Assembly (NCBI GenBank): GCA_036275915.1
Contig: DASUCV010000022.1
Location: forward strand, 248,001-312,000
Direction of reading: 5' to 3'
DNA: 64,000 nucleotides
Source of the DNA: Candidatus Polarisedimenticolaceae bacterium
GTDB lineage: Bacteria; Acidobacteriota; Polarisedimenticolia; Polarisedimenticolales; DASRJG01
Shown: in pieces, positions 28,873-34,044 of the stretch
Numbering within the stretch: position 1 is the first letter of the stretch
Layout of the letters: every line of letters starts with the position of its first letter
Position numbers and translations under genes: made by a program
The notes under the pieces: generated by a model
What the model saw: the letters and a program-made list of their open reading frames with translations, nothing else
Told to the model about the DNA's origin: nothing
The model's database searches: none

Positions 28873-30120
28873 ATGCCTCGCGTGGCCGCGCCCCTCGCCC
28901 TCATCGCCGCGCTCGCGGCGAGCGACTGCTCGCTCCTCCATCAGAGACAGCAACACACGTACGCGCTCGACGCGCCGCTGACGGTCGAAGACTCCGCGTT
29001 CCTGCGCTCGCTCGACAACTTCGGCAGCGTCATGGTCAAGGGGAACTCGGCGGAGCTGCTCGAGAACGGCGACGGGATCTTCGGCGCGATGTTTGGCGAC
29101 ATCCGCGAGGCGAAGTCGACGATCAACCTCGAGATCTACATCTACCGCGACGACGAGGCCGGCCGCCAGGTCGCCGACGCGCTCATCGAAGCGAGCCGCC
29201 GCGGCGTCGAGGTCCGCCTCATGCCCGACGCGGAGGGAAGCAAGCTCGACACCCTGCGCGGAGAGCTCGAGAAAGCCGGCGTGATCGTCAAGGACTACCG
29301 TCCGGCGAAGAGCTACAACTACCTCGGCCGCCGCACGCACCGGAAGCTGCTCATCGTCGACGGCAAGATCGGCTACACCGGCGGCTTCTGCATCGACAAG
29401 CGCTGGCTCGGCGACGGCCGGGCGAAGGACGAGTGGCACGACACCGCCGTCCGCGTCACCGGCCCCGTCGTCGCGCAGATGCAGGCGATCTTCGGCGAGG
29501 ACTGGACCTACACGACCGGCGAGATCCTCGCGGGCGAGAGGTTCTTCCCGGCCTTGCCGCCGACGGGCGAGATCCTCGCACAGGCGATGAAGGCGTCGAA
29601 GGGCGACGCGTCGTCGCTCCCGAAGATGCTCTACTTCATGGCGATCGAGGCCGCGACGACGAGCATCCACATCCAGAACCCCTACTTCCTCCCCGACGCG
29701 CAGATCCGGAAGGCGCTCGTCGCAGCGGCGAAGCGCGGCGTCGACGTGCGCGTCATGGTGCCGGGCCCCGACATCGACGTCCCGCCGGTGAGAACCGCCT
29801 CGCGCAGCGAGTTCGGCGAGCTGCTCCTGGGCGGCGTCCGGATCTACGAGTACCAGCCGACGATGATCCATTCGAAGGTGCTCGTCGTCGACGGCCTGTT
29901 CACCTCGATCGGCTCGATCAACTTCGACGCGCGCTCGATGTCGAAGAACGCCGAGGAGTGCGTCTCGTTCTACGACCGCGCGTTCGCGACGACGGTCGAG
30001 ACGATGTTCGAGCGCGACGCCCACGACTGCAAGGAGATCACCTACGAGGCCTGGCACCATCGGGGCGTCGAGAAGAGGATGACCGAGCTCCTGTCGCGCC
30101 TGTTCAAGCCGCTCTATTGA
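28873..30120 (+). CDS. Cardiolipin-synthase-like phospholipase D, exported or membrane-anchored
   Basis: 415 residues from ATG 28873. A hydrophobic N-terminus (VAAPLALIAALAASDC) could be a signal or lipoprotein-type anchor; the DCS sequence lacks a classical lipobox. Both HKD motifs are intact: RRTHRKLLIVDGKIGYTGG (about 155) and MIHSKVLVVDGLFTSIGS (about 334). Flanking segments such as EIYIYRDDEAGRQVADALI and PYFLPDAQIRKALVAAAKRG match bacterial cardiolipin synthase/PLD enzymes, which transfer phosphatidyl groups. Unlike the PLD-like gene at 10723, both catalytic Lys are kept. Residues 230-260 contain a spacer rather than the paired transmembrane helices of classical ClsA. Confidence 0.88.
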   Translation: MPRVAAPLALIAALAASDCSLLHQRQQHTYALDAPLTVEDSAFLRSLDNFGSVMVKGNSAELLENGDGIFGAMFGDIREAKSTINLEIYIYRDDEAGRQVADALIEASRRGVEVRLMPDAEGSKLDTLRGELEKAGVIVKDYRPAKSYNYLGRRTHRKLLIVDGKIGYTGGFCIDKRWLGDGRAKDEWHDTAVRVTGPVVAQMQAIFGEDWTYTTGEILAGERFFPALPPTGEILAQAMKASKGDASSLPKMLYFMAIEAATTSIHIQNPYFLPDAQIRKALVAAAKRGVDVRVMVPGPDIDVPPVRTASRSEFGELLLGGVRIYEYQPTMIHSKVLVVDGLFTSIGSINFDARSMSKNAEECVSFYDRAFATTVETMFERDAHDCKEITYEAWHHRGVEKRMTELLSRLFKPLY

Positions 30121-30312: not shown

Positions 30313-31266
30313 ATGCGCGTTCACGCGCCGGATACTGCCTTGGACCGACGACTGGCCGAGGAGGTCCGCGCCTCGTTGCCGAGGGGCGGGACTCTCTTTC
30401 GGTACTTCCGCGACCGGTACGCCCTGCAGCTGCTCGCCTACGCGGCAGCGGAAGGGCGGAGCCTGCCCGAGATGCGGCGGGGTCGGTTCGGTGCGCTCTT
30501 CCAGAAGCCGTCGGTCCGCCGTCTCTTCGCGACACGCGAGCGGTGCGTCGATTGGGATCTGCTCGACTCGTACTTCCCGGCGCCGACCCAGGACTACGAG
30601 ATCACGCTCGGACTCTGGGGCAGCGATCGCGACTGGCACTGGAACCAGACGAGCCGTCCGGGCTTCAACGTCGTCCTTCAGCTCAACTTCCCCAGGGCGC
30701 ACGATCGCGCGTACCGTCGGTACATCCGGCCCGGAAACGAGACGCCGTTTGCGCGCGGCGGCCACCCGGTCAACGAAGACGGTCTCCACACGATGGCGTG
30801 GGCGCGGCTCGACATCGACGGGAAGCACGGCGAGGCGCTCATCGAGGAGATCCAGACCGACTGGATTCGTGACGCCGAGGAAGCGTCCGAGGCCGCGCTC
30901 CTGTTTCTCGCCGAGGGTACGTTCGAGCTGCCCTGGTGGATGGACGAGGTCGGCTGCGACTCCCTCGACCTGTTCCGCTACGTCGAGCACGTGCTCGGCT
31001 TCCATCGGCGACTGTGGTCCGAGGCGACGCTCGCTGCCAGCCTCTGGTTCCTGCGGGAGCACCTCGGGATTCGCCGCATCGCGATGCACACGCACGCGAG
31101 CGGATGCAAGCTGAAGCGCATCGACCGGCGACCTCCGCCGCGTTCGCTCTACGAGAACGTGCCGCGCGCGTTCTGCTTCGAGCGCGTCGTGGGCGCGCCG
31201 CGCTTCCTCCGGCCCGCGCTGCCCGCGACACTCGCGCACGAAGAGTTCTGGCACTTGCGCCTTTGA
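30313..31266 (+). CDS. Uncharacterised protein with an EIQTDW motif
   Basis: 317 residues from ATG 30313 (a GTG at 30253 would add 20 residues). No signal peptide. The middle contains HTMAWARLDI then EALIEEIQTDWIRDAEEAS (about 195-215), resembling the EIQSDW block of large polyvalent proteins on phages and mobile elements. The C-terminal part (LWFLREHLGIRRIAMHTHAS, then ENVPRAFCFE) matches the same domain order of a helix, a beta strand and a closing pocket. Here it stands alone in a chromosome without a mobile element. The domain function is not established, so I assign none. It lies between a PLD gene and a kinase gene. Confidence 0.7.
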   Translation: MRVHAPDTALDRRLAEEVRASLPRGGTLFRYFRDRYALQLLAYAAAEGRSLPEMRRGRFGALFQKPSVRRLFATRERCVDWDLLDSYFPAPTQDYEITLGLWGSDRDWHWNQTSRPGFNVVLQLNFPRAHDRAYRRYIRPGNETPFARGGHPVNEDGLHTMAWARLDIDGKHGEALIEEIQTDWIRDAEEASEAALLFLAEGTFELPWWMDEVGCDSLDLFRYVEHVLGFHRRLWSEATLAASLWFLREHLGIRRIAMHTHASGCKLKRIDRRPPPRSLYENVPRAFCFERVVGAPRFLRPALPATLAHEEFWHLRL

Positions 31267-31332
31267 CATTTGAGCCGGAAAGGGCCTTCTCGCCATCCGC
31301 ACGCGACGTACACTTTCGCGGGGGCGCCTGGG

Positions 31333-34044
31333 ATGGATCGAGGGGATAGCCGCGAGGCGATCGAGCGCATCCTGCGCGAGGCGGCGGCCCTCGACCCGGC
31401 CGATCAAATCGCCTACCTCGAGGACGCGTGCCGCGACGATCCCGCGTTGCTCGACGAGCTGACGTCACGTCTGCGCGCCGGCGGCTTTGTCCCCAGGCGC
31501 ATCGGCCCCTACCGTGTGCTCTCGGTCCTCGGGGAAGGTGGGATGGGAACGGTCTACCTCGCCGAGGAGCAGCACCCGATGCGGCGGCGCGTGGCGCTCA
31601 AGATCGTGCGCAGCGACCTGCACGCCGGGGAGATGCTCGCGCGATTCGAGCGCGAGCGTCAGGCGCTCGCTCTCATGGAGCACTCCGGGATCGCCCGGGT
31701 CTACGGCACGGGGACGACGAGGCGCGGCCGCCCGTACTTCGTCATGGAGTACGTCGACGGTATCCCGATCACGCGCTTCTGCGACGAGCGGACGCTCGGC
31801 CTGCCGCGGCGCCTCGAGCTGTTCATCAAGGTCTGCCTCGCGGTCCATCACGCCCATCAGAAGGGGATCATCCACCGCGACCTGAAGCCGACGAACGTGC
31901 TCGTCGCCGACGAGGACGGCGGCTCGCCGAAGGTGATCGACTTCGGCGTGGCGCGCGCGGTCGAAGCGGGCGCCGCGCCGGAGCGTACGTCGGAGGCGGT
32001 CATCGTCGGGACGCTCGAGCACATGAGCCCGGAGCAGGCCACGCCGGGGTCGAAGGACGTCGATACCCGCTCCGACGTCTACGCGCTCGGCGTCCTCCTC
32101 TACGAGCTTCTCTCGGGGCGGCGTCCGTTCGAGCTGCGGAGCCGCGAGGTCGGTGCGCTCGCGGACTTGCAGCGGAGGATCGTGGAAGAGCCGACGCGTC
32201 CACCGAGCGCGGCGGTCGATGCCGGAGCGGCGGCGGCGCGCGGAACCTCCCGTCGCGCGCTCGCCCGCGCGATCGCCGGCGACCTCGACTGGATCGCGCT
32301 CAAGGCGCTGGAGAAGGACCCGAGGCACCGCTATGCGTCGGCTTCCGAGCTCGCTGCCGACGTCCAGCGGTACCTCTTCTCCGAGCCGGTCCTCGCCGGG
32401 CCGCCTTCGCTCGCCTACCGCGCGCGGCGCTTCGTCGTGCGCCGTCGAGGTCTCGTCGCCGCCGCGGCGATCGTCGGCCTCGTCGCAATCCTCGGGGCTG
32501 CGGTCTGGGTGCGCGAGCACGAGGTCGCCGAGGAGCGGCTCGCCGACTACCGGAATCTCGCCGACCGGCTCCTCCTGGACGACTTCAAGAAGCGCGCGGA
32601 CACGCTGTGGCCCACATGGCCCGAGAACATCCCGAGGATGGAGGTTTGGATCGACGGCGCGTCGAGGCTCGCCGTGCGGACGGAGTTCCATGCAAGGCGC
32701 CTGCAGGAGATGCGGCGGCGCGCACGGGTCGAGACCGTCGCTCCGCCGGCGGGCGGTCGCCTCGACGACCTCGTCGCGGTGCGTGACGCGCTTCGAAAGG
32801 AGCTGGCCGCGATGAGTCCGTCCGGTGAGGCCGACTTCGTCGCGATGAAGCTGAAGCAAGCGGAGGACCAGATCGCCGCGCTGCGGGCGGATGCGGCGCG
32901 GGCGCAACGTTACGTCTTCGACTTGCCGGAAGACCAGAAGCTCCACGATCAGCTGGCCGCCCTCGTCCTGGACCTTCGCACGCTCGGCGATCCCGACCGT
33001 GGGCTCATCGCCGACATGCGGCGTCGCATCGCGCAGATCCACGCGCTCGAGCGTGCGACCCTTGATGACGCCACAGCCGAGTGGGCCGCGGCGGCGGCGG
33101 CGATCGCGGCGTCGCCGCGTTACGCTGGGCTCGCGGTCACACCCCAGATCGGCCTCGTGCCTCTCGGCGCCGACCCGATCTCGGGCCTTTACGAGTTCCT
33201 GCACTGGCGCAGCGGCGAGCGCCCCGTTCGCCGGGCGGACGGACGGTACGTCATCGCCCCCGAGACCGGCATGGTGCTGGTGCTCATCCCCGGCGGAAGC
33301 TTCACGATGGGAACCGATCGCGGCAGCGACCCACTCGCCTGGAGGGCCGAGGGGCCGCCTCATCGCGTGACGCTCGCTCCGTTTTTCCTGTCCAAGTACG
33401 AGATGACGCGCGGTCAGTGGCGCCGCGTCGCGGCTTCGGATCCCTCGCTGTTCACTCCCCCACGCGCGCCGACGGAGACCGAGCGGGCCCTTCATGACGT
33501 CCAGCCGGTCGACCAGGTCTACTGGCAGCAGAGCCACGATGTGCTCGCCAGGATCGGTCTCGAGCTGCCCACGGAGGCCCAGTGGGAGTACGCGGCGCGC
33601 GGCGGCACGACGACCCGTTGGTACACCGGCGACGATCCGCGATCGCTCGCCGGGCATGCGAATCTGCACGACCTCGCCGCATTGCGGGCGGAGAGAGGGA
33701 CAGCCTACGCCCGGTACGAGTCATGGCTGGACGACGGGTTCGCCGCGCTCGCTCCCGTGGGGAGCTTGCTGCCCAATCCGTTCGGTCTCCACGACGTGGC
33801 GGGGAACGTCGGCGAATGGTGTCGCGACTGGTTCCAGGTCTACGACTGCCCGGTGAGGCCGGAGACCGGTGAGCGCATCCCCGTCGACGACGGTCCGATG
33901 CGCCGGGTCATGCGAGGCGGCGGCCGCGGCTCGCTCGCGACGATGGCGCGGGTGACCGCGCGCGAGCACATCGACCCTTCCATCGCGGAGGTGGGAGCGG
34001 GGCTGAGGCCGTCTCGACGCCTCGTACCTCCCGAAGGCGAGTAG
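31333..34044 (+). CDS. Ser/Thr protein kinase fused to a formylglycine-generating-enzyme-like (SUMF1) domain
   Basis: 903 residues from ATG 31333; the open frame begins at 31270, but this start matches the helical N-terminus typical of such kinases. The Pknb-type domain (about 56-345) has VLGEGGMGTVY, VALKIV, IIHRDLKPTNV, VIDFGVARAV and a GTLEHMSPEQ activation segment. One transmembrane helix (about 370-392) is followed by a helical region. From about 645 an SUMF1-type domain has MVLVLIPGGSFTMGTDRGSD, LELPTEAQWEYAARGG, NPFGLHDVAGNVGEWCRDWF and a final RVTAREH. Such kinase-SUMF1 fusions are known in Planctomycetota and Acidobacteriota, where the SUMF1 part is probably an extracytoplasmic sensor or binding domain. 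Confidence 0.9.
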   Translation: MDRGDSREAIERILREAAALDPADQIAYLEDACRDDPALLDELTSRLRAGGFVPRRIGPYRVLSVLGEGGMGTVYLAEEQHPMRRRVALKIVRSDLHAGEMLARFERERQALALMEHSGIARVYGTGTTRRGRPYFVMEYVDGIPITRFCDERTLGLPRRLELFIKVCLAVHHAHQKGIIHRDLKPTNVLVADEDGGSPKVIDFGVARAVEAGAAPERTSEAVIVGTLEHMSPEQATPGSKDVDTRSDVYALGVLLYELLSGRRPFELRSREVGALADLQRRIVEEPTRPPSAAVDAGAAAARGTSRRALARAIAGDLDWIALKALEKDPRHRYASASELAADVQRYLFSEPVLAGPPSLAYRARRFVVRRRGLVAAAAIVGLVAILGAAVWVREHEVAEERLADYRNLADRLLLDDFKKRADTLWPTWPENIPRMEVWIDGASRLAVRTEFHARRLQEMRRRARVETVAPPAGGRLDDLVAVRDALRKELAAMSPSGEADFVAMKLKQAEDQIAALRADAARAQRYVFDLPEDQKLHDQLAALVLDLRTLGDPDRGLIADMRRRIAQIHALERATLDDATAEWAAAAAAIAASPRYAGLAVTPQIGLVPLGADPISGLYEFLHWRSGERPVRRADGRYVIAPETGMVLVLIPGGSFTMGTDRGSDPLAWRAEGPPHRVTLAPFFLSKYEMTRGQWRRVAASDPSLFTPPRAPTETERALHDVQPVDQVYWQQSHDVLARIGLELPTEAQWEYAARGGTTTRWYTGDDPRSLAGHANLHDLAALRAERGTAYARYESWLDDGFAALAPVGSLLPNPFGLHDVAGNVGEWCRDWFQVYDCPVRPETGERIPVDDGPMRRVMRGGGRGSLATMARVTAREHIDPSIAEVGAGLRPSRRLVPPEGE

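Follow-up and report, generated by a model that had tools for sequence, protein, structure and literature searches.

What is a small chromosomal protein doing with the signature motif of a domain known from giant phage proteins? This question is raised by a gene at positions 30340–31266 (+) of the window, that is, of the whole 64,000-nucleotide stretch of DNA analysed here. The original prediction compared the EIQTDW motif of its product with the EIQSDW block of the very large polyvalent proteins of phages and conjugative elements. As described below, the window protein is a member of an unnamed chromosomal family that spans several phyla, and the safest description of this family is that of an unnamed divergent GNAT-fold family of RNA-repair/translational-stress clusters, with a phage counterpart.

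The gene and its product

The open reading frame, the EEIQTDW block, and the flanking order that had been described for it all proved real and conserved upon translation and alignment of homologues, and HTMAWARLDIDGKHGEALIEEIQTDWIRDAEEAS and REHLGIRRIAMHTHAS are both present in the 317-aa translation of 30313–31266 (+). The length first given, 317 residues, is that of the open reading frame counted from the ATG at 30313. The aligned homologues, however, begin opposite residue 10 of this translation, where the window has a TTG codon (30340), and the true coding sequence is therefore probably 30340–31266 (+), with a TTG start and 308 rather than 317 aa.

In the AF2 model and the alignment, the protein begins with a mostly helical region (30346–30570, +) containing the invariant Y31 and composed of helices 12–19, 35–46, 51–56, 60–64, 66–73, and 81–86 and strand 27–31. 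Strand β3 (30790–30819, +), with the sequence TMAWARLDID, carries the invariant W163, R165, and D167, and the EEIQTDW signature (30844–30864, +) closes strand β4 (residues 174–181). A long helix follows (residues 217–250; 30961–31062, +), with the invariant W235, and then strand β5, IAMHT (31075–31089, +), after which come the invariant G264 and K268. The segment PPRSLYENVPRAFCF (31135–31179, +) forms helix α4 and strand β6, and contains an invariant PP pair, S278, Y280, P284, and F289.

The upstream neighbour encodes a cardiolipin-synthase-like PLD protein (28873–30120, +), and the downstream neighbour a Ser/Thr kinase fused to an FGE-sulfatase domain (31270–34044, +), with no functional link implied for either. 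An M28 peptidase, a DUF4185 protein, a carbonic anhydrase, and a methyltransferase were the other genes tested around the locus, and for all six the earlier statement that no mobile element lies nearby holds. The gene is solo and chromosomal, rather than part of a large multidomain mobile-element protein. The window contains no tRNA genes.

Conservation and distribution of the family

Homologues were found at 34 loci in public genomes (32–44% identity), and two further ones in relatives of the window genome (50% and 40% identity). Across 27 aligned homologues, the pattern LIEE-Q-DW-R is invariant, and the I and T of the motif are at least 90% conserved; W102, Q112, H151, P152, and G252 are invariant in addition to the residues named above. 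The protein has no match in Pfam, PHROGs, NCBIfam, or the PDB sequences, and no relative was detected in IMG/VR viral contigs by a profile-guided scan, nor in INPHARED phages or PLSDB plasmids by tblastn.

Members occur in Pseudomonadota, Verrucomicrobiota, Thermodesulfobacteriota, Rhodothermota, and Bacteroidota, and are sparse within classes: 3 of 41 genomes in the class of the window genome, 8 of 286 in that of a verrucomicrobial locus (L020), and 13 of 369 in that of Hahella (L010). Such a patchy distribution points to horizontal transfer or to numerous losses. In Sessilibacter corallicola, the gene is broken into two open reading frames (L034:5947–6900) adjoining RtcB and PrfH genes.

A predicted divergent GNAT-like fold

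The AF2 model, built from the family alignment, has a pLDDT of 90.1 and a pTM of 0.90. The best 50 chains in a Foldseek search of the PDB were all GNAT proteins, with weak E-values (0.08 at best). The leading rows of VIA-align were nearly all GNAT as well, with 3lod and human GCN5 at the top (Z 8.1, 113–125 residues aligned), NAGS at 7.8, and the Elp3 GNAT domains and the GNAT-like antizyme at 7.6 each, Z values near 8 being not high and close to the warning level of the tool, and a common fold revealing no function. SpeG and RimI are also among the GNAT matches. Furthermore, strands and helices follow one another in the model as expected for a GNAT core, and β4 terminates in the motif. Taken from this model, a divergent GNAT-like fold is very probable. 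The protein shares its predicted fold with the GNAT superfamily, but departs from it by additional helices at the N-terminus and by a long helical insertion that precedes β5.

In GNATs, acetyl-CoA is gripped by the loop [R/Q]-x-x-G-x-[G/A]. This loop, expected between β4 and α3, is absent from the 27 homologues, which have W-x-R-x-A and no conserved glycine at this place; the protein is therefore not classed as an acetyltransferase. Since the alignment has no conserved glycine-rich pyrophosphate loop after β4, a standard use of acetyl-CoA by the protein is unlikely.

The missing loop also speaks for the main rival to an enzymatic reading, namely a non-catalytic GNAT-fold adaptor that, like antizyme, would act as a scaffold or sensor, binding tRNA, RtcB, or the ribosome without any enzymatic step. 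Among the best structural matches are the C-terminal domain of ICL2 and ornithine decarboxylase antizyme, which use the GNAT fold but are not ordinary acetyltransferases; SPFH/Band-7 proteins, often encoded next to the family, also favour such a role. Against it, the invariant residues are mostly charged or polar (H151, R165, D167, E178, E179, Q181, D183, R186, K268, and Y280), and several of them map to β3 or to the last residues of β4, the region of the active site in GNATs. On balance, we consider an adaptor rather unlikely.

Relationship to the phage EEIQSDWHQ domain

Viral contigs carry the EEIQSDWHQ domain very often, although Pfam lacks a model for it: a DNA pattern for it was found in at least 120 viral stretches (L038–L157), in open reading frames of up to 4073 aa among the matches listed. 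A Pfam scan of 42 phage domains found no common model, with a single LPD39 match in one member, and INPHARED yielded two distant matches for one representative of the phage domain. Among PHROGs, a phage EIQSDW protein matched best to an "endolysin" profile of 2564 positions; this label was set aside, as the name of such a giant-protein profile need not fit the domain. GNAT domains of polyvalent proteins have already been noted as two RimI-like families (PMC5512222), and the EIQSDW domain may be one of them.

A phage representative modelled from the 42 phage sequences (pLDDT 82, pTM 0.76) also has leading VIA matches that are GNAT or GNAT-like, namely the ICL2 C-terminal domain (Z 10.3) and AtaT, TacT3, and GCN5 (9.6). 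Compared element by element, the two models have a matching order, with extras between the first two strands of the phage model. The cellular protein has strands 93–104, 117–125, 160–169, and 174–181, helix 217–250, strand 255–259, helices 261–267 and 277–286, and strands 290–293 and 311–316; the phage domain has strands 74–79, 179–186, 240–251, and 256–264, helix 333–350, strand 355–358, helices 361–367 and 375–401, and strands 406–412 and 415–424. EEIQ closes β4 in both (residues 178–181 of the cellular and 261–264 of the phage model). Also common to both are an R as the sixth residue of β3, 13–16 residues ahead of the motif, and a W in the next long helix, 16–17 residues before a G that itself stands three residues before β5. 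In contrast, the phage domain has about 95 added residues between its β1 and β2, sits inside longer proteins, and continues after the motif with a conserved W-H-Q-x-G-R-x-x-G-Y instead of the cellular W-x-R-x-A. When the cellular model was searched against a viral structure library, the top hit was a fragment (1008 residues) of a large viral protein (E 1.5e-4, probability 1.00).

At the sequence level, hhalign aligned the cellular and phage profiles with a P value of 6e-5 over about 60 columns of β3–β4, the best value among 60 column-shuffled control profiles being 0.034. With the motif masked or with the flanks alone, nothing significant was obtained, but the flank after the motif still aligned in the structurally expected register. 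When phage sequences were scanned position by position for the flanking blocks, the outcome was close to chance, and no full-length sequence homology is therefore claimed. The bare 7-mer EEIQTDW is weak evidence alone, since it also occurs in unrelated viral open reading frames; these viral occurrences were rejected as relatives, their reading frames encoding unrelated proteins.

Overall, the proposed link to the polyvalent-protein domain stands with respect to predicted fold and motif position, but significant sequence similarity is confined to the surroundings of the motif. The comparison of folds that had been called for was carried out; with both models GNAT-like and the motif in a corresponding position, it did not yield a different fold. 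Common descent of the cellular protein and the phage domain within the GNAT superfamily is likely, and a specific sister relationship between the two is favoured on the basis of motif and topology. The cellular form may be either a domesticated enzyme or the ancestor of the phage domain. Unlike the phage domain, the cellular family consists of solo proteins linked to RNA-repair genes; at the phage loci no RtcB was found, and only 3 tRNAs occur among the 120 listed.

Genomic context of the family

Checks for defence or nucleotide-metabolism genes beside the homologues had been suggested. Neither category fits exactly, and the recurrent neighbours are RNA-repair genes, as identified by neighbour clustering and family scans: RtcB (PF01139), PrfH (TIGR03072), SPFH/Band-7 (PF01145), and HNH. 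A tblastn search detected RtcB in 20 of the 34 loci, SPFH/Band-7 in 7, and either one in 25. A second sample from a profile search, consisting of 20 loci, 2 of which repeat genomes of the first sample, gave similar counts (RtcB 10, Band-7 5, either 12). RtcB is usually encoded directly upstream of the EEIQTDW gene on the same strand, and the order RtcB, PrfH, EEIQTDW gene is seen in three loci. Cultivated hosts with the RtcB linkage include Hahella ganghwensis and Pseudothauera nasutitermitis.

In five loci, a tRNA array lies upstream of the Band-7 and/or EEIQTDW gene on the same strand, with 17 tRNAs in L020 (842–3439), 13 in L009 (55–1602), 12 in L189 (5934–6972), 11 in L008 (425–3480), and 9 in L019 (1463–3161). 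These arrays cover many amino acids and resemble the stress-induced trn operon of Anabaena. HNH genes are present in L008, L019/L020, L192, L212, and L213; a small one recurs next to Band-7 or RtcB (L008:5194–5955, L020:5512–5871, L212:7187–7789, and L192:6963–7274). Loci with both Band-7 and RtcB have one or two tRNA-like genes upstream of Band-7 (L007:4247–4322, L219:10287–10359, and L220:4128–4198). Some of these have odd anticodons, either two-base ("ag", "tt") or stop-reading ("tta"), and may encode non-decoding tRNA-like RNAs.

The tRNA arrays would also suit a toxin-like GNAT that, as AtaT and TacT do, acylates aminoacyl-tRNA and is checked by, or paired with, the repair genes and spare tRNAs, and the nearest folds of the phage domain include AtaT, TacT, and KacT (Z 8.1–9.6). 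Rows near Z 9, however, are ties inside one superfamily, the standard acetyl-CoA loop is missing, and no recurrent small antitoxin gene adjoins the family among open reading frames of at least 90 aa. A toxin is accordingly very improbable.

On a tree comprising 54 members, 12 changes are required to explain the RtcB label, at least 7 of them forced by well-supported branches; the linkage has thus been kept or regained across lineages. A label shuffle test on this tree shows clustering of the RtcB label and nothing more. Each of 12 genomes checked has at most 3 RtcB matches in 2.9–7.1 Mb, and adjacency by chance (within 6 kb) is therefore expected at about 1% or less per locus. Both results weigh against the reading that the family is a housekeeping metabolic or protein-modifying enzyme, with RtcB linkage an accident of a few lineages: the linkage recurs on well-separated branches, together with tRNA arrays, PrfH, and HNH genes, and 1–3 RtcB copies per genome would seldom fall so close. 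What favours that reading is that 19 of the 54 tree members, the window's included, have neither RtcB nor Band-7 as a neighbour, and that the window gene lies between PLD and kinase genes. We regard a housekeeping role as quite improbable.

No RNA-repair gene adjoins the window copy itself, and its genome, which is 98% complete, yielded no match to RtcB (PF01139); the RNA ligase PF09414, considered as a stand-in for RtcB in that genome, gave no match either. Its clade comprises two relatives and two alphaproteobacterial copies, all without RtcB or Band-7 neighbours. The RtcB-linked role of the family may differ from that of the solo window copy.

Proposed function

The functional reading is built on the predicted fold, on invariant polar residues in β3 and at the end of β4, and on the repeated linkage to RtcB, SPFH/Band-7, PrfH, HNH, and tRNA arrays, co-location being a sign of a common process and not of a reaction. 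That the family belongs to an RNA-repair/translational-stress module is probable. That it is more precisely an accessory enzyme of divergent GNAT fold in RtcB-type tRNA/ribosome repair or in a translational-stress response is the favoured explanation, held at about even odds. The leading guess is that it transfers or hydrolyses a group on tRNA or the translation machinery; acyl or aminoacyl-group chemistry in particular is put forward only tentatively.

In such a scheme, the GNAT cleft, lined by E178, E179, Q181, and D183 together with H151, R165, and D167, would bind its substrate, either a tRNA that is damaged or (amino)acylated or some other component of the translation machinery, and the EEIQTDW protein would move or remove a group on this substrate, so that cleaved RNA could be re-ligated or damaged ribosomes could recover. 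The window copy would be a solo version that works without RtcB in its own genome. A bolder proposal, which we think unlikely, is that the EEIQ[S/T]DW fold defines an unnamed GNAT-derived enzyme class with non-acetyl-CoA chemistry on tRNA or the ribosome, serving translation repair with RtcB after RNA-cleaving attack in bacteria, and overriding damage responses as a domain of giant proteins in phages.

A fold and a testable process can now be given for a motif of many giant phage proteins that lies outside current Pfam models. Since fold and signature motif are common to the cellular family and the phage domain, a link to tRNA/ribosome repair becomes testable for both; if it holds, phage EEIQSDW domains are candidate factors acting on host tRNA/ribosome damage responses. 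In addition, the clusters of RtcB, PrfH, SPFH, and tRNA arrays, in which it is poorly understood how the parts share the work, gain an unnamed component.

Comparison with known repair and stress systems

The EEIQTDW protein is not named in the literature on these modules cited here, and a 2016 survey of RNA repair (10.1093/nar/gkw722) may mention it. In Anabaena, the targets of the repressor TrcR are rtcB, an HNH gene, the trn operon with its 26 tRNAs, and an operon that pairs a slipin (SPFH) with a hypothetical protein, and this repression is relieved by translation-inhibiting antibiotics (PMC10272220). The gene alr0739, adjacent to that of the slipin under TrcR, is a candidate member of the EEIQTDW family. 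The same set of a tRNA array, HNH, rtcB, and SPFH also surrounds the EEIQTDW family. In E. coli, RtcB2-PrfH is reported to shield cells from colicin E3 (PMC9223846), and RtcB and PrfH are likewise found around the EEIQTDW family.
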